64,000 bases of DNA from Panorpa germanica. Lineage: Eukaryota; Arthropoda; Insecta; Mecoptera; Panorpidae. The stretch spans positions 4,712,001 to 4,776,000 of the forward strand of contig OY783203.1 in the NCBI GenBank assembly GCA_963678705.1. Reading direction: 5' to 3'. Shown here one piece after another: positions 19,209 to 52,574 of this stretch. The notes under the pieces were generated by a model. The model was not told the DNA's origin. It saw only the letters and a list, made by a program, of their open reading frames with translations, and did no database searches. Both the position numbers and the translations under genes were made by a program. Each line of letters starts with the position of its first letter. Within the stretch, counting starts at the first letter, position 1.

Positions 19209-22200
19209 CTGCGGTATGAATACATTATACAAAAGAGTAGGCAAAAATTACGAAATTACGGATAGGCTAAAATTCTGCAATGCGAGTTGCAAAGAAACTA
19301 CATACCATTGATGGAGTTTAACTGCATTCACCGCCTGATTGGTCTTTTCAAGCTCCTCTTGAATTACCATTTGTTCCTGCTGTCCTTGTTTAAAAACTTC
19401 GGCTTCTCTGGCTTCACAAAGCATTACTTCTGTAAATAAACATTTAAATGAATATACAACATTGAGCTGTCGTAATTATATAGATTTTGTATTATGTTTA
19501 AGTTCAAAATGTAGAAAACTAAATTTTATAATGCTACTAAAGCTAATTTTTAAACTAATTTCCAACGTTCTTTAGTATTAGACGTTTTCCAAAGAATTAT
19601 TTTTGACAAAATTATTATTTCTAAAACATCTATTTTAGGTAACAAAGTACGTAGCCTAATTTAGTTGATATACGTCATTGGGTCAAAAATTGCTTAATGT
19701 AAAAACAAACATATCTAGAAAAGGATAAGCCATTCCTAGCTGTGCAGAGATTTATGCTTAAATGTGATGCCCATTAAATGTGGCCAGCGTGCAGTTGGCG
19801 GCTCCATCACTTTAACGCACCATAATACTGACTGTTTAGACAAATTGTGAAACGAAATATTACTTAAATTAAATTTACATAGCTGTATTAAGCCTGGTGA
19901 TTGCACTTCGTTGGTGACGTTGGCTATGTGACTATTTATTTTTAATAATCTGTTTTACCCCTATCACTCATTAGTTGCCTCATTTCTTCTGCATGACGTA
20001 ACTTTAATGCCTCATTCTCTAGTTGCAACTTTCTTATCATTGCATTTTTGCATCCTGCGTCTGCCATTTCATACACAGTTTCTTGCATCAACTGTATGAA
20101 GTAGTTAGACATCTAGAATTAAGGAGTGTTTATATTAATTAATGTTTTACTTAAAATTGATAATTACAATTTGTAGTACTACTTGATGTATTATCTAAAC
20201 TTCAATAAATTATATTTATCCTTTTGTAACTTTCTAAACTGATGAGCAGATATATTTCTCTATCCTTAACAAGTTTTTTTGATTTTGATTTTAAATGGGA
20301 TACGCATACTAATTTTTGTAAGAGGAGTAAAGTCTTATATGGCTGAAAAATGGTTTAGTTTGAGAAAAGACAGACCACAAACCGTCCACCAAAGCTAACT
20401 GCGTGCAGCACACCTAAAGCGAGTTAGTACCATCACACACTTTCGGTTTTCTTAAGTTAACTTTTACGCGATTCACGATTTCTTTTCAAAATATTTAATG
20501 TAAAAAAAAAAACTTCATTCCTTACTTAGTTCCAGTAATAGTAAGATAATAAAATATAAGGTAATATTGATTTTACCTTCTCAGCATTATCATGTAATAT
20601 TTTCATGAAAGAGTTTTGTTCTTCAGAAGGAACTCCCTGGCTATATCGAAATGATTGATTCTCCGGCAATTCGCTGGGTCCTGTTAATGCAGAAGCATCA
20701 TCACCTGCAAAATAAGATATAAGATGCTTTTAAATGAATAAGAAAATAAAAGAGTACTTGACCTTTCTGTCACCATAATTACTTTATTTACCTAGTGTCA
20801 ATCTGGAGTTCATTTGGAGTTGTGTTTCATTCAACGTTCCAGAAGTTGATGGAAGCTCTTCTGTTCTTATCTCACTCGAAATTGAGGTATTATTAGAATG
20901 ATCATGTGCTTTCTCTATGTGAGTATTTACAATAAACTCATTGCCAATGTCAGGTACATTAACCGACGTGTTATTAGAAGCTGATTTATCTTGGCGTTCA
21001 TTTTGAATTCGTAAACTGTTCAGTTGCTCTATATAATGTTTTTGCATTTCTATGAATTGTCTCTGTGGCCTAGGAAAACTTTTTCGAGCATATCTTGGCA
21101 CATATCGTGCATTCGATGTTGGTTGAGATGCCTCTTCATTTTCTATAGGCATTACAAGTGTGTCTGGTACTTCTTTTACATTCTGCCGATTAGGCATTGC
21201 AGAAGAACTTTGTTTAGCAGCAGTATTTGAAATAGAAATTTGATCGTTTGATGGTTTATCAGGATTTGATGAACTCCTGGTTTGAAGTGGCGGTGGCAAT
21301 GATGAATTCTGAGCTTTGCGGGTAACTTTAATCTCTTTCACAGTTTTGTTTCCGTTTTCTAGAGAACCAATGGAAGTTTTGTCCTCAGAGTTTTTCTTAT
21401 TGCTATTGCTACATGTTTCATTACATGGTTTCGTTTCATTGTAATTCGGAAACATGTAGCTATAGAAATATTCTTCTATTTTCGGGTCAAATTTTGTATC
21501 AAAAGGAAAATAACAAATGGATCCAAATCGCTTTTCCAAATTATCTATATAAATATCAAGTTCCTAAAAAAAAATGCAACAATAAATATTTACAAACTTT
21601 ATTATTTTACATAGGTAAGTTCTTAATTGAATTAAATATCGAGGTCAGAATATTGAAAACTGAGAGAAAGAAAAAATATTTGAAAACTAGATATATTTGA
21701 AGAGAACTAATGTTATTGTTCAAATAATGAAATGACAAAACAAATGAACTAATTGAAAAACCAAGGATTAAAGTTTCAAGTTTTGAAATTTATGCAAACA
21801 ATTTTTATATTCTTAATATTGAAGTTTAAACTATCGATTAGTTAAAAGATTATATTTACTTGAAAGCTTTCAATGATTAAGGGAAGTAAATTTCCTTTAT
21901 ATAAGTGTAGTGGTTTCTTGCCATCGTACAGGTAACAGTCCTTAAGCGGTATTCTCGAGTGTTCATGTTTACCGAAGAAACGCACATTTCCCATTCCTAA
22001 ATTAACCGATATTAGTTTTGCTGGCCAATAAGGATATCCTGAAAAAATTAATAACAATATAGCAAATTGTTTATCTACGTAAAATGGCATAACTAATTGG
22101 TTTTTACCTCCTGGAAGATTATATAAATAAAGTCTACTTAAATAAATAGACTGTTTTCCAATTGCGGAACAAGAGCGTATAATGCGGCATTATGCATTAT

Positions 22201-25200
22201 TTTAATATTAGATATGTTAGATACGACAGCAGTTTATATGATAGTTTTATATAATTTAACGTAAAAATAACGTAAATGGTGGTATCTTTTAGGAAATAGA
22301 TCCCAAGAAATACATAAGAGAAATTATAATTGTGTTTTATAAATGAATTCAGAGTAACACCTGCTAAATATGAAATATATTTTACAAACACCTTAAATTA
22401 AAAAAAATGCATTTGGAAATAGGCAAAAAAAAAGGTATTAATATCTAATAATTCATAAATAGATTCTTTTATAGATTTCTTTACGTAATATTTTCATGTT
22501 CAGGGAGTAGCTTAAATAGAAAGATTATAAATTTATTATAAAAACCTCTGACTTTCGCCCAAATCGGTAAATGAGCTTTTGAACACAAATCAGTAAAGAA
22601 AATATCGTCGTCCCAAGTCATACCCTTGAAATAACAATCCTGACAAACTTTTATTTTCTTAACTTCTTCTATTGAAACTTTTATAATACTTTTCGCTGCT
22701 GCAACCCTTTTTTCTTCACCTGTAAAAATCATATCTACATGATAATATCTTACATTTATAAAATAGTTAAACAAAAATCTTAACATTTAATGAAATAATC
22801 TAACAAAGGAATAGATAAATTGTTAATTTGGATTATATGTTCAGAAGTTAATGAGAAAATTAGTATTTAAGAAACCTGAGATTTAACTTGCTTTAATATA
22901 TGTTAATCGAGAAATATTTTCTTCTTATTGCTTTCGAATTAATATTTAAGTTTAACTAAGATGCATTTGCTGAAATGCAAGAAGAGATCTTTAAACAGAA
23001 AGAACCCTTTTCGTCACAGTCCCGATAAGTGGCAAATGAAACCAGTTTTATCTTGCATAGGTGTTTCCGGAAATAGTGATAGTACTCTCCCACTCTTTAA
23101 CAGGCTTTAGCAAATAGATCCTAAACAATATGAACTATCAAATCTTTTATAGGTATTTATTTGACTAATCGGATCCACCATTTGCAGGAGTACTTGTAAA
23201 TCAAATCAAGCCAAGGAAATTAGTTTGTGATAGAATAAACAACAATTTATAGAAAAAATTTCTAGAACTTATTTGGATAAATTGTTACTTTTATTTACAA
23301 TTAATAGTGCTACGAGTTCTTAGCTTAAATGGTTAGCAAATAAAGTAAGTCAACTACATAAGTAATTACATAAATTCTTACCAAAGTCATAAACTATGGA
23401 GTTGTGTAATATCCATTTGCAGTCAGCTAAAAAAGCCTCTGGTTTTTTGTACATATTATGGTCAATATTTAATTCTAAAGTGGATAAATCCATACGTTTA
23501 ATTATATAATTGTCGTAATCTGGATGCATCTCTGTGTCCACGGGCTTCTTGAAATACTCGACCTGAAAATATGTAAAATTATTACAATCTTTTCCCGATG
23601 GGATCATAAAATACTTTTAAACTACCTGACTCAAAAAACTAAACTTTTTCTGTTTATATTTTAAGTAGAAAATAATAAGCGATGTAACACTTTAATTAGC
23701 TAGAAATAAGCCAGCAAGTGTGTGACTGCGTTACAATGTAATTTTTAGATGAGAAAATGAACCTTGGCTTGTGATAAACTACCTTACAAGCAAACTGTAC
23801 TGCAAGACAATTTTCTACCTGGGTATTATATCAGAAAAATTAAGCCGATATATTAATTTGTACCAGAAATGTAGCTAAAGTCTTTAAAATTAGTTTGATT
23901 TATATAAACATTCAAAACCAGATTTGTTTAACATTTCATATAATATATTTTTTGTTTATATCACTCTTTTTTAAGAAACTCAAGAACAACAAACCCAAAA
24001 ATGAAACATTATATAAATAATATTTATTCTAAAAAACATCAATTGCAGAAAAATGTTGCATGTTGAATTAATATTCTTATCATAAACAAATATTAATAAT
24101 TATCTGTGTAAAACTACTTACTCCATAGTGTTGAAGCATTTTATTTAACCCATACTTCAACATTTGTGACAGATGTGTAAGTCCAACCCTTTTCCTTTTA
24201 GAAGCCCTGTAAATAATATTTATTATAAAAAAAAAATTTCCATTAAAATATATTTCCATTAAATGCAACTATAAAACATTTTAATATAGTTTTCGTCAAA
24301 ATGTTTGAAAAGCTTTTCTATCGTAAAACTGTATATATCAATCATCCTCTTCATTAGTGAGACCTGCATTACCTGGGTATTGAAACCTTCTAAAATATGA
24401 TGCCATTGCTTTCTTATCGTTTAAAATAGATTAAGATCTCAAAGTTACATCAATTTCTTTCTTAGAATTGAATTTAATAATACTGTTTGTAATAAAGTGC
24501 AAATATTCCCTGCGAAAGGGAACTGACGAAATGCTTATAATGACCATCAAATCTTAACTATTATCAATGGGGAAGGTATATTTGAGATGTTAAGAATATT
24601 GTTGATTACAAAGTGAACAAATGATTAACATATTAAATGATGTCAAATGATTAAATCGGTCAATAAATACTTTTAATAGTACAACGTAAAATCAAATAAT
24701 AATCTACAAGATTCATGCAATGCAAATAAGAATAAAAAATTATTCCGTTTTATATTTTGTAAAATGATTTACCTAGCAAATTCGTTGACTTCGGTCCTGT
24801 CATGTGGGGCATCTACACATTCGCAACAAATCCAGTTTTCAGAAAAAACAGTTCCTCTTTTCAAACATCGCTTGTGATACGATCGTACGCAGTGATGACA
24901 ATTTACATCAATTCCTGCCATGTGGCACATCCAACAAAAGGAATCCTGAAAACAGTATAACTAAAATCAGAAATATACCACTTCTTTAATTATTAAAATA
25001 ATTAAACAATTTATCTTAGATATACATTGCGTAATTGGAAATTAAGCTTTTATGATTTAAAAGGTCTTTATTTTTTAATCACACCTATTTCAGTTGTATC
25101 TACTTCTGCCCTATCATTTCCTACGCATGATCCGCATATGTTTTTATTAAAAATAATAAACATTACCTTATTACTATTATTACTAATTGGTGGCTTATTT

Positions 25201-25526
25201 AATATTCGTTGAGGACGATGTACCAACACAGTTTCGTTTTGTAAGATATCAGGCGAAGAACTGTTTTCCTGCACTGGTCTCTCTCGTAAATTATATGAAT
25301 TATTTGTGTTTTCTTTTGCTTGATGAGATGATTTCCGTTTTGAAGATTTTTTTGCTACCTTTCGAGGTCTTCCATGTTTGTTCATGGTAGTCACTACATT
25401 TGTATCTTCCCTATCACCCATATCTATTGTTTCGATAACTTCGAAAACCTGTTGAAAATCTTCTCCTTGAGAATTGCTAACGGATGAGGCAACAGAATCT
25501 TCCTCAATAGGTATTTGGTCATTCAT
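19094..25526 (-). CDS. ZMYND11: ZMYND11 (BS69)-like chromatin reader, 11 coding exons, 814 aa
   Basis: This is a nuclear reader of modified histones. The family binds H3.3 K36-trimethyl nucleosomes through PWWP and recruits repressors through MYND. The exons, in transcription order, are 25526-25167, 24945-24773, 24206-24122, 23562-23382, 22719-22546, 22038-21860, 21563-20792, 20704-20577, 20112-19959, 19429-19306 and 19208-19094. All introns are GT-AG, phases agree, and the total is 2445 nt. Domains: AT-hook (about residue 51), PHD (about 121-170), bromodomain (about 180-300), Cys/His zinc linker (about 300-320), PWWP (about 320-400), Ser/Asn-rich linker (to about 684), coiled coil (685-775) and MYND (776-812). 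Diagnostic blocks are WAKVRGYPYWPAKL, VRFFGKHEH and HQWCSNCSEEAV. The ATG at 25526 is fixed by an in-frame TAA just upstream; the GTG three bases before it is not the start. Vertebrate ZMYND11 is about 600 aa. This protein lacks the N-terminal winged helix and has a longer linker. Confidence 0.93.
21860..22719 (-). other. Exons 5-6 of the ZMYND11-like gene: zinc linker and PWWP
   Basis: Exon 5 (22719-22546) carries Cys-Gln-Asp-Cys and Cys-Ser-Lys-Ala-His, the zinc site linking bromodomain to PWWP in this family, and ends in WAKVRG. Exon 6 (22038-21860) continues YPYWPAKL, VRFFGKHEH and the C-terminal helical part. The aromatic residues expected to cage trimethyl-lysine (Tyr, Trp of YPYW and Phe of RFF) are present. 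Confidence 0.92.
23382..24206 (-). other. Exons 3-4 of the ZMYND11-like gene: bromodomain
   Basis: Exon 3 (24206-24122) gives the first helix, including HLSQMLKYGLNKMLQHYG. Exon 4 (23562-23382) gives the ZA-loop FKKPVDTEMHPDYDNYI and the C-helix WILHNSIVYDFG. The position normally filled by the acetyl-lysine-contacting Asn of the YN motif is Asp. ZMYND11 relatives are also non-canonical there, so acetyl-lysine binding is doubtful. Confidence 0.88.
23683..23826 (+). repeat. Dispersed repeat H in intron 3 of the ZMYND11-like gene
   Basis: Two related half-units, GTAACACTTTAATTAGCT with AGCCAGCAAGTGTGTGACTG, and ACAATTTTCTACCTGG, match the dimeric copy at 50743-50884 and the copies at 28567 and 63430. 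Confidence 0.65.
24773..24945 (-). other. Exon 2 of the ZMYND11-like gene: PHD finger
   Basis: Encodes Cys-Trp-Met-Cys, then Cys-His-His-Cys, Tyr-His-Lys-Arg-Cys and Cys-Cys-Glu-Cys: the Cys4-His-Cys3 ligand order of a PHD finger, complete within one exon. It starts phase 0 after a TTTTCAG acceptor and ends two bases into an Arg codon. Confidence 0.92.
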
Positions 25527-25567
25527 CACAATATTTCTTTAATTGAATAAAGAATGCCAAATGGTCT

Positions 25568-28650: not shown

Positions 28651-29349
28651 GATAGAACATGAATATTGTATATAGCAAGCAACCAAACTATTAAATGAAT
28701 AAGTTGTTACCTTATACTATCTTCTAGAAACTATATATGACCAACTTACTTTGTAGAAATAGTACATACACTATTAAAATGTATTGATCTTACTTTTCAA
28801 TAATTTTTCAGTTTCTAATATTATATTGTGAAAAGCAACATTTAGTTCACTCTATTTCAAAAATTGTAACTCATTGTAAAGCAGTTTGATTATTTTCTTT
28901 TGATTTTTCATTTTCTGCAATTTCCCGGGGACTCTATTTGTAATTAGTTCCCAGAATTTCCTTAAATTGTATTCGTGAGTAATTTGTCTTCGCCGCAAGA
29001 GCTTTTAGCCCTCAGAATTGTCCTGCAAAACCATAATTTTTATTAAACATTTTATGAAACCAAAGAAAACTGTAGAAATATTAATAGTATTACATACAAC
29101 GTCAGATCTATACTGCAAATACTAATTCAGGATATTAACAGATAGAAAATAGATGTCCTTCAATAGACAACTTTCGACATCAACCAAATTAATCTGATTC
29201 CATCAGTATTTACTTTACCGATATGACTTGTATGTACTACGAAAAATGATTAACATAAAGATAATATATTACCTCGAAGGCAATATTTAAGTGTGTAGAT
29301 ATTTTTGGTATGGTTATTTAGTTAGTATGATCTTGCAAGAAACTTATTA
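28651..29349. other. Intergenic, probable 3' side of the 110-aa gene
   Basis: No coding signal. Minus-strand transcripts of the 110-aa gene should end here, but no clear AATAAA lies close to the stop. Confidence 0.4.
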
Positions 29350-29682
29350 TCATGAAGATGCATAGCCTTCATCATTAAGTCTTACTAAGACACGCCCGTC
29401 AATATATTTCTGGTTGTATATAAACAGGCCAAGAGCATTTCTGCTAAGGTCGATGAAGCCCATGTCATAAGCCATGCCGGATAAAAACCATATCCTAAAG
29501 TCAAATATTCGTGGACAATGACGAATGGTTACCGTAATAGTACGATGGTTGGGAGTTGACAACATTATGTACGCTTCAGGCATACAGTAGTCGAAGTAAA
29601 TTATTGCCATGTTGTTTAATTCGTATGGATACTCCAATCGAATAACGTCCGAATGGTGGGTGATGTAGTTCATGAGCTCCAT
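29350..29682 (-). CDS. Small protein of unknown family, 110 aa (tandem paralogue 1)
   Basis: I do not recognise the family. The coding part is a single exon opened by a TGTTTTCAG acceptor ending at 29692. The protein has LEYPYELNNM near residue 17-26, then alternating hydrophobic residues suggesting beta strands, a TIRHCP motif, an MGFIDL motif and the C-terminal LNDEGYASS. No signal peptide or membrane segment is visible. The start was chosen because from this ATG to PYEL is 20 residues in both this protein and the paralogue at 32582-32917. The in-frame ATG at 29712 lies across the acceptor and would not be in the mRNA. GC content is clearly above the flanks. Upstream leader exons are possible at 30702-30800 (donor TTAAG|GTAAGTAA) or 30414-30440, the latter extending the frame by an in-frame MNPNIFTKQ. 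Confidence 0.72.
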   Translation of the reverse strand: MELMNYITHHSDVIRLEYPYELNNMAIIYFDYCMPEAYIMLSTPNHRTITVTIRHCPRIFDFRIWFLSGMAYDMGFIDLSRNALGLFIYNQKYIDGRVLVRLNDEGYASS

Positions 29683-31079
29683 TTCGAAATTCTGAAAACA
29701 GTAAATTGGCATTATTTATTGGCACAACTTTAATTGATGTTCGTTCGTGAAGTTTGTAAATATTGTATAAATAATTTTTGATTGATTCGTGTTGAAACAC
29801 AGAACTGCGTCTCTACTATGATCACTTTAAGATTACTTTAATTAGAACAATGGCAAATTTTAGTAAACGTTTTGGAATAGTTCTTCAATGACATCTTTGT
29901 TGATACCTCCAGTTTGCAATACCACCGTCCTTATTTTGTTTAAGAGTGTCCTTTAACATTAGACGATTTTCTAATCTAGCGTTTCGAATAAGGCAAAGCT
30001 ATAGGGTATACCCTAGGGTAGATTAAGTAACCAAATTTTGTACAAAATGATCAATTGAAAAACGTCAATGGTAATGGGAACAATTTTAGAAGAAATTTCA
30101 AATTACTATAATATTATTAGACTACTTGATTAGGGTTATGATATAACGCCAAATTAGTAACTTATGTATATCTTGGGTGAACTAAAGTTCTCCAACTTTA
30201 GACCTTTAAATAGCGTCTAATGTTAATAGGCGTTCGTAAAAATTTGACAAGGAAGGGGCTAATTTAAACTAAAATCATTTATCCGAATGGAGTTCTTTGT
30301 ACTTTCAAAGCATTAGTTATAGAAAAATACATAACCTTCTATTGGTTGTGAATATTTTCCCAGAAAAAACACAACAACAAAATATGCTAACTGGAAACTA
30401 AAATTTTCCTAACCTGTTTTGTAAAAATGTTCGGATTCATTTCAAACTCAATAATGACTCCACCGCATATAAAGTGTGGAATTGTTAGTCAGAATAAGGA
30501 ATGGACTTATACAGAAATATTTTATTATAAGGGCATCTGTCATTTATGACCTATTCAGAATTTGTTCATGTCTGTTTGCAGATATATTTAAACAAAAAAT
30601 ACATTGTTTAATATATATAACAAATACAATAATAAATAAAAATAATAGAATCATATATGTTAAATAGTTACAGGAATTGTGATTATAATGGATTTACTTA
30701 CCTTAATTAATGTTAATCAACAAAGATGCCTAACGAAGCCCAACACGTCCGTTAGCATCAGCACCCACACTTAAATTGTGCAAATTTCAGCTTGCTTTTT
30801 TTTACATATATGGAAATGTGTTCCTTTAGTCAGGATATAGTTTAAAATCGAAAAGGAAATGTGTTCCTTTGGTCATTCTACCATCGTAATTATTTAAATT
30901 TTTACTTTAATGATATTTCAGAAAATCAAATTAAATATATGAATGCGATATATATATAACGCTAATTTTTTTTATAAATAATTTATGTATCAATGGTTTT
31001 CTTGGAATTACTCTTGCACTTTTAAAGTAGCCGCTACTGGTGTAGCGGAAGATAATAAAAAGAATGAACCCGATATTTA

Positions 31080-31089
31080 GCGCATGCGC
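31080..31089. promoter_or_regulatory. GCGCATGCGC palindrome, NRF-1-type site
   Basis: A perfect GCGCATGCGC palindrome, the core of the consensus bound by NRF-1 (Ewg in flies), in DNA otherwise poor in CpG. It lies about 280 bp upstream of the best leader exon of the 110-aa gene. Confidence 0.5.
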
Positions 31090-32487
31090 GTTATCAGAGC
31101 AGAGATCATTACACCAATTCTCTTGATTTCTGTTTTAGGTTGCGGAACTGGTTCGGAATTCTAGAATAGTAATGGTCTTTGACAACAGATGTCCTCTAAC
31201 CCTCGAATACATTTGATTTAAAAACACTCCTTATAAAATTAGAAGTAAAAAATTCAATAAATATTATAAAAATTTTAAGAACTTTTTAAGAATTAATTTA
31301 TACCTATTTATAGGTATAATTTTTGTCGAAAAAGTTACTAATAAAAGTAAAAGTTACAATAATAACATTTGTAAACATAATTTTATACTTATTTAATTTA
31401 ACAATTTTATATATTTTTAAATACATATTATCAAAATAAATAATCTATCTGAATAAATAACATATCTATTACACTTAAATTATATAACAGAAATATGTAT
31501 TCTGTGGTAATTCTTTGATAGTTAAATAGGTGTCTTAAATATTTCGGTGAAATACAGTTTCTGTATTTGTATTATGATAAATCTGGCCTTGCTGATGGTA
31601 ATACTCGTACAACTCTTGCATTTTTCATTTGTAATTAAAAATAACTATAGATTTTTAGTAATTTAAATATATAATTCTTGATATTATTTGAATTCTTCAG
31701 AGGGTTTTTTTTATTTTTAACGTAACCTGTAACACAAAAATCAAATGAAAGTTTGTTATGGAATGAGTAATACAAATAATGTATTGCAATGTATTGTAAA
31801 TGTAACACCGAATTAGTAAACTTGCCTAGTTAGAGTAATTGTTTGTACGAGTATGTTTGTCACATGTATTTCAATGATAGTCTCATTGGCTTCTTGACAA
31901 TAATCTAATATTAATACTTCAATTTTAAATTATTTTTAGTATCCAGTAGCGCATGAGTAGAATCATAAAGAAAAAGATTTTCGTCATAGAATACGAACAC
32001 GAGAGAACGAAAGAAATAGAGAGAGCCTTACAGAAGTCTTACAATACTTTCAAAATCTTAATCCAACACTGCTACTGTTCACGAATTGTGCAAGAAGTTG
32101 CTTATTAACCAAACTAGGCTAGTTTACTAATTCCGTACAACTTGTTCAATTGAGATGACTGTATATATTCTTATCCAAAGCAAGAGTGAACTAGAAACAT
32201 GTTAGCTACTCAAAGTATCGGAATTTATGATTTTTTCGAACCGGGGCAACAACTTGACATTGGCGCCCTCTATCCCCTACATACTGCGAATATTTCTTAA
32301 TTAATTTAATTTTTTCATTGGTAAAAACAATACAAAGTCAAAAAGAAAAGAAATATGATAGGTTAGTTGTCTACTCTAAAAGTGTACGTAATGCCTTTCG
32401 GAATTTAGGGCCTCAATGATATTATTCCCTTATTTCCCTCTTGGGGCAAGTACCCCGGTTTGCCTCAAAACCTCAATGAAACCGAGT

Positions 32488-32532
32488 CCCAATTTGAGCG
32501 GGCAAATACGGTAAAATCACGCTCAAATTGGG
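32488..32532 (-). other. Perfect 13-bp hairpin in the 3' UTR of paralogue 2
   Basis: CCCAATTTGAGCG at 32488-32500 and CGCTCAAATTGGG at 32520-32532 pair without mismatch around a 19-nt loop. It begins 50 nt after the stop codon, so it should be in the transcript. It could be a stability or localisation element, or a trace of a small inverted repeat element. Confidence 0.75.
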
Positions 32533-32581
32533 AAGAATGTTCACCTTCTGTATAACGATAACCTTACGATAGCATAAGTCG

Positions 32582-32917
32582 TTAATCTTCAGACATATAT
32601 CCTTCATCTCGCAGTTGAAACGGCACTGGATCCCCCATATATCTTTTCCTGTACACATACAGATATCTTCTAGTTCTTTCCAGATCCAGCCGACCCATCT
32701 CATTGTTGTCAACAGTTTTGAATATTAACTTCATTCGGAATGCGCCTGGACAGTGACTTATGGTTATGGCGAGGCTATAATTATCACCGTGAGATAATAC
32801 TATATAAGTTTTTGACGCAAACACTTGATAATATAAAAGCACTGCGTCCCTTAACTCATATGGTAAAACAATCGGAACTCTTTCAGCAAAGACACCTTCG
32901 TAATTGAAGTCCTCCAT
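32582..32917 (-). CDS. Small protein of unknown family, 111 aa (tandem paralogue 2)
   Basis: Function unknown. It aligns end to end with the 110-aa protein at 29350-29682 with one single-residue gap. Shared positions include the initial ME, NY at residue 5, PYEL at 19-22, YI.L near 38, HCP near 55, MG.(I/L)DL near 74, a Tyr-rich (L/F)YVY stretch and the C-terminal L.DEGY.S; I count about 34 identities. The protein is mixed charged, with predicted strands and no signal peptide or membrane segment. The ATG is preceded by an in-frame TAA 12 bases upstream, so the start is firm unless a leader intron intervenes. Transcribed in the same direction as paralogue 1, about 2.9 kb upstream of it. The 31% identity points to an old duplication retained under selection, because both frames are intact. 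Confidence 0.75.
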   Translation of the reverse strand: MEDFNYEGVFAERVPIVLPYELRDAVLLYYQVFASKTYIVLSHGDNYSLAITISHCPGAFRMKLIFKTVDNNEMGRLDLERTRRYLYVYRKRYMGDPVPFQLRDEGYMSED

Positions 32918-51242: not shown

Positions 51243-51868
51243 ATGGGCTTGTGTCCTATGTCTTAATTTCTATAAAAGTGTACTATATATTGGTAAAGTA
51301 GGTTACTAGAACCTTAAATGTTCAATTATTTTTTAATAACTCCTTAAATGTTAAGAGATATTAACAATTTAAAAAGTCATTTTGCTCTTTAATTATTAAA
51401 GGGATTCAACGTTGTACACATACCAAGTGCATGTGACATCACAATCCTTGTGTAAGGTTACCAATCTTACAGCTCATAAATCTCTGCTATATGTATTTAT
51501 ATATGAAAATATCAAATATTATTTACAGCTATTTCAAGGAACAATCAAATTTCAATATTATGTCTGCCGTAACCGGGTTAAATAAAATAAAAACTTATTA
51601 TTCTTCGACTTGACTTGATTATTTGACTATCAACAGCTACAGAACATTACCACAGCACTGACCTACTCAACAAATAACTGACGTTAAAATGCATTGCACG
51701 TCATACAAATATGGCCGACCATTTCTAGCGCTAAAACTACAATTCAAACTTTTAATTGCTATATCTCCGTCAATATTTAGATATTTAATAAAATAGACAC
51801 ATTTATTAACATCAATTTCAATCAACAATTAAAAAATCGACCACTAAAAAATGAGGACACAAGCCCAT
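51243..51868 (+). mobile_element. MITE C, complete copy
   Basis: 626 bp between TA dinucleotides, with perfect ends ATGGGCTTGTGTCCT and AGGACACAAGCCCAT. Non-coding interior. Copies or pieces are at 4294, 6921, 10673 and 43340. TA duplication and terminal repeats fit a Tc1/mariner-related or similar non-autonomous transposon. Confidence 0.9.
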
Positions 51869-52574
51869 TAGAAATTACTAATTTCCGTGTAAATCTTAGG
51901 GCTCTAAGAGAACTTGGGTAAATTATTACTACAATATTAAAAAACACATTTATAAAATACTAATGTAAAAAGAAATAATACACACTTATATGTATTTACA
52001 TTAATTTTTCATAAAAAAATATTATCTTTTATGTAAAAAAATATTGCCTAAACATTTTGTTCAGTTATGTTGCTTATTGCTATTAGAATCATAAAAAGAT
52101 AAGGTCTATTTGTGTTTCACTATATATCTACGAGTATACCTCGCTTGAGCAGGCAGACGACTTGAGTTAAACGATCATGGTTCATGAAAAGAAGAAGACC
52201 ACTTCAACAAATTGGTGTTCAACAAACACGTGTCAACAAAAAACTAATCATTAATAAATTCAGTTTTAATTTCGTCGAAAGTAGAAATTTGATTATTATA
52301 ACCTAAATGGAAATTATTTAAGATCCTACCTTCGCTCGCTAAGAATTTTACTGGAAACTCTTCTTCTTTTCTCTAAATGCCATATGATTATTTAAAAAGA
52401 AGAAGAATGTTTTTAACCTTTTCGATACAACGGAGTACTTTTGATTGAATATACCTGTATTTTGCGGAGTATTACTAAAGAAAATGTACTAATAGATATT
52501 ACCGTTATATTTCAGTCTGTATTCTTAATCCTTTTACATTTTTTAAGTATTTATTTAGTTAATATTAAGAGATT
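51869..52574. other. Intergenic AT-rich DNA
   Basis: Nothing recognised. Confidence 0.5.

Follow-up and report, generated by a model that had tools for sequence, protein, structure and literature searches.

The closest described systems to the gene pair reported here are the lineage-specific tandem families of insects, which it resembles as a kind, and two fungal protein families to which weak matches point. One of these comprises the fruit-body lectins of fungi (FB_lectin, PF07367), whose fold we take to be actinoporin-like, and the other is PH_fung_RdRP, a fungal RdRP-associated PH-like domain. In the portions available to us of the literature on fruit-body lectins in arthropods and insects, and on restricted tandem genes in insects, nothing was recognised that concerns the family described here. 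We compare with these systems two small neighbouring genes, A and B, from a 64,000-nucleotide stretch of the scorpionfly Panorpa germanica (the window), which were probably retained as coding sequences after an old duplication.

Results

An earlier note on this DNA had drawn attention to two intact minus-strand frames of 110 and 111 residues about 2.9 kb apart, and both are present as described. Together with two short elements near A, they are:

29350..29682, minus strand: coding frame of gene A, 110 amino acids from the conserved Met, stop included; called from homology to B and frame retention
32582..32917, minus strand: coding frame of gene B, 111 amino acids, stop included; called from homology to A and frame retention
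29692..29702, minus strand: splice-acceptor-like stretch, core TGTTTTCAG, 9 nt ahead of the A Met; picked out by eye on the sequence
29039..29044, minus strand: AATAAA, a hexamer like a poly(A) signal, about 0.3 kb downstream of the A stop; picked out by eye

The frames are separated by 2,899 bases and lie on the same, minus strand. Frame A is intact and ends at 29350, with the conserved Met at 29680-29682; the longest ATG frame starts at a Met at 29710-29712 and encodes 120 aa, and the inner Met (110 aa) is favoured because the alignment to B begins there. Given that this alignment runs from Met to stop in both genes and that the B frame is closed by a stop 12 nt ahead of its Met, A and B are unlikely to be exons of a longer gene, a possible leader intron in A aside. 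The acceptor-like stretch ahead of A, which reads TTTTCAG by eye, may possibly mark the end of such an intron. As a candidate poly(A) signal the AATAAA hexamer is weak evidence, because AT-rich DNA contains many of its kind. The features by which the note had linked the two frames hold as well: PYEL begins at residue 19 in both, at an equal distance from the Met, and HCP, DL and DEGY are common to A and B, as is one Cys. The GC content is indeed elevated, at 0.402 (A) and 0.39 (B) versus 0.23-0.36 per kb across the window. No hydrophobic leader or signal peptide was seen by eye in either protein.

BLASTP aligned A and B without gaps, with 35/110 residues identical (32%, where 31% had been reported), 61/110 positive, 67.4 bits and an E of 6e-21. 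The ungapped BLOSUM62 score was 171, against a mean of -107 (sd 23, maximum -5) over 20,000 shuffles. Under a third-order Markov model, a 64-kb sequence is expected to contain 0.41 ATG frames of at least 110 aa by chance (no more than 2 in any of 100 runs), so that a lone frame of such length has little meaning and it is two frames aligning end to end that count. The similarity of the two DNA sequences is confined to the frame and stops at its edges: identity in ungapped 30-base windows is 0.37-0.60 inside the frame (base 10 to 339) and 0.13-0.43 outside, the single exception being a window straddling the start codon region (0.47). At a nucleotide identity of 48.5%, differences fall at 55, 45 and 70 of 110 sites for codon positions 1, 2 and 3, respectively (p 0.003). 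When neutral decay was simulated to matched identity (~0.49-0.50) from either starting copy, both frames stayed open in 0/20,000 runs; across all eight settings, 2/20,000 runs were open in one (identity 0.63) and 0/20,000 in the other seven. Both frames are thus open beyond neutral expectation, as tandem paralogues under selection would be, and the earlier suggestion that they are maintained at high divergence is borne out. NG86 gave dN 0.74 and dS 1.66, a ratio that is merely indicative because dS is near saturation. The edge-limited similarity, the bias among codon positions and the retention of the frames together make it well supported that A and B are maintained coding genes, a paralogous pair whose frames have stayed open since an old duplication.

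Apart from A and B, tblastn gave no convincing place in the 464-Mb assembly (464,208,970 bases in 249 contigs). A search with B at E up to 0.001 returned B itself and A, and one with A at E up to 10 returned A, B and a place on contig C12 at E 0.19; since the tool scores just its best candidates, very diverged copies could escape these counts. The place on C12 was rejected as a third paralogue and taken as a chance match: neither conserved end is present, no B alignment falls on it, and the 97-aa frame at this place continues into dispersed-repeat sequence. A two-sequence profile of A and B was run on 264 kb with 5,813 stop-free frames and found nothing better than E 0.81 after A and B themselves; two frames scored at that value, and the surroundings of one of them, at C21:4792985, showed nothing further by eye. 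The many dispersed copies that would mark a repeated mobile element were not found, and with two convincing places the pair is not a repeated element. A match to a transposon-encoded protein, which the note had named as grounds for refutation, was sought and did not emerge from either the genomic places or the mobile-element proteins in Pfam.

The family had been called unrecognised, and for the libraries searched, whose DNA collections are viral, phage and prokaryotic, this is established. Pfam-A gave no row above cut-off for A or B and none for mobile-element proteins, NCBIfam and PHROGs gave nothing convincing, and PDB sequences gave no match under E 0.1. Nor were relatives of the pair found in viral contigs, phage records (B only) or prokaryote genomes, the locus searches among these reaching mainly close relatives. 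Several rows were set aside as too weak: the sole Pfam row for A, PH_fung_RdRP (PF25358; residues 36-71 of the 120-aa form, E 0.12), for which membership was rejected with 12.4 bits versus a cut-off of 27 and no row for B; the solved structures SCaMC-1 (E 0.11, 0.22), haemoglobin linker (0.45, 0.5) and SarX (0.15-0.21); and a PHROGs row at E 0.21.

Structure prediction gave B an all-beta fold with strands throughout (pLDDT 61.9). The prediction for A (pLDDT 40.0) is too low for fold comparison and has a strand order similar to that of B. The fold matches of B are weak and mixed, and the best rows among them are fungal fruit-body lectins. In Pfam, neither A nor B had a row for the FB_lectin profile itself with E as high as 10, a limit to be read with the HMMER filters in mind, which drop most rows above ~0.1. 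A genome search with FB_lectin gave 0 matches in the insect's own assembly and likewise in 0/14 control genomes, and is therefore uninformative.

The synonymous codon choice of A and B is unlike that of the host. Synonymous codon scores were -0.069 (A) and -0.035 (B), while ten local frames taken as genes scored 0.003 to 0.040, a range flattered by the inclusion of these frames in their own training set; the corresponding test gave P 0.96 (A) and 0.65 (B), that is, no host-like signal. For whole-codon scores, the ten frames, again included in the training, span 0.017 to 0.258; B (0.077) falls within this span and A (-0.058) under it. The host frames, picked by eye as likely genes, are a small yardstick. 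GC3 is 0.473 (A) and 0.369 (B) versus a mean of 0.259 over 29 blocks from twelve local frames, and the cut-offs of 0.468 and 0.366 were reached by 0/29 and 1/29 of these host blocks; local retroelement frames have a GC3 of 0.32-0.43. Host-unlike codons and high GC3 count against an ordinary host gene, and could reflect a different class of gene expression or a foreign origin. They do not cancel the frame-retention result, because retention was judged from A and B by themselves.

Relative to the frames of a gene with a PWWP-like exon (window 20787-25538, minus; exon at 21845-22189, E 0.003, below cut-off), A and B share the strand and are situated upstream; the frames next to that exon presumably resemble ZMYND8/ZMYND11 proteins. 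Two other tandem families, diverged to a similar degree, occur nearby. Eight related frames of ~125 aa comprise seven in tandem at C21:4698316-4710785 (L015 from 6316, L016), spaced by ~2 kb and ending 1.2 kb before the window, and one at 4870416-4870808 (L026); 25 of their 28 pairs match at E 1e-3, with 20-48% identity. Three leucine-rich-looking tandem frames of 360-397 aa, 28-35% identical, stand at C21:4859357, 4866300 and 4873573 (L025, L026). At E 0.01, Pfam had no match for the three of the eight ~125-aa frames that were scanned, nor for any of the three leucine-rich-looking frames. With two other diverged tandem families lacking a Pfam name within 264 kb, such a pair is ordinary in this region.

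Several further elements were observed. A perfect 13-bp inverted repeat, CCCAATTTGAGCG / CGCTCAAATTGGG, lies at window 32488-32532, 50 bp past the B stop (by eye). The short repeat at window 32214-32291 has two other matches in 264 kb, one of 79% across 86 nt and one of 85% across 46 nt, and contains a TTGGCGCC stretch that, on our assumption, resembles a retroelement primer-binding site. Two Pao-type retroelement frames, at C21:4662837-4664573 (L012) and 4861807-4863513, are alike by eye over their first 260 residues, and the former matches DUF1759 and Peptidase_A17. A dispersed repeat of ~0.6 kb (window 51501-51878 and L005 1703-2341) occurs many times within the 264 kb, with identities of up to 96%. 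About 100 kb away lies a cofilin whose closest solved chains are AGAP012056-PA and 'Cofilin/actin-depolymerizing factor homolog', which we assume to be mosquito and fruit-fly proteins. A zf-AD domain, a type typical of insects, was seen below cut-off (E 2.3e-4, 21.8 bits versus 28). The cofilin and the zf-AD domain lend support to an insect source, short of proof. The telomere-type pattern matched once in each orientation and its control once, which shows no telomere array.

Discussion

We propose that A and B are functional small insect genes of one coding exon each, descended from an old duplication and with frames preserved by selection, whose products would be intracellular all-beta binding modules; we put the probability of this reading as a whole at roughly 0.5. 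Its parts differ in strength. The sequences argue strongly that A and B are real genes, whereas the predicted structure hints weakly at a binding function. Each product would be an intracellular all-beta domain of ~110 residues acting as a binding module, in which the PYEL, HCP and DEGY stretches may maintain either the fold or the face used for binding as the remainder diverges. A and B might bind different partners or serve in different tissues. Given the conserved ends, the lack of a leader by eye, the one shared Cys and the all-beta prediction, an intracellular single-domain binding protein would be the most economical reading.

The chief alternative is that A and B are members of a wider family, ordinary among insects or animals and missing from the libraries used, in which case 'unrecognised' would reflect those libraries, which lack eukaryote proteomes, and would not point to a restricted origin. 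This is compatible with the mechanism proposed above, and the DNA collections searched, which hold viruses, phages and prokaryotes, would leave room for it; however, Pfam-A covers all life and has no match above cut-off for either protein, and the PDB sequences likewise have none, so that we hold it to be unlikely, if the most credible of the alternatives. A foreign origin is more doubtful still. Transfer into the insect from a virus, a fungus or some other source, with subsequent duplication and retention, would fit the host-unlike synonymous codons, the high GC3, the single coding exon per gene and the fungal lectins among the best fold rows of B. Yet viral contigs, phages (B only) and prokaryote genomes yielded no relative, neither A nor B matches FB_lectin in Pfam, and copies at 32% identity are old, so that a foreign composition should have faded.

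It is very improbable that the frames are pieces of mobile elements or of a dead gene, open by accident. The codon usage, a GC3 within or above the local retroelement range, the old repeat ~0.3 kb downstream of B and the lack of expression evidence for A and B could all be accommodated by such relics, but these would hardly have both frames open where 0/20,000 neutral runs at matched identity do, a conserved start and end, only two convincing genomic copies and no mobile-element protein match in Pfam. The most specific version, in which A and B would have founded a new insect family with a horizontally acquired beta-sandwich of the FB-lectin (actinoporin-like) type and would act as an intracellular defence pair binding glycans or membranes, we consider barely credible.

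Should A and B prove to be expressed, and to occur in a single insect lineage, they would make a small, clean case of a new family keeping its frame and fold down to 32% identity; at present they add another undescribed tandem pair to a region holding several. Among the described systems, the fruit-body lectins are where the best, though weak, fold rows of B point, while A and B are without a match to the PF07367 profile. The link to PH_fung_RdRP consists of a weak row for A below cut-off, with none for B. The lineage-specific tandem families of insects differ from A and B in that the pair has just two members, and as a kind they share with it same-strand neighbours, strong divergence and the lack of a Pfam name.
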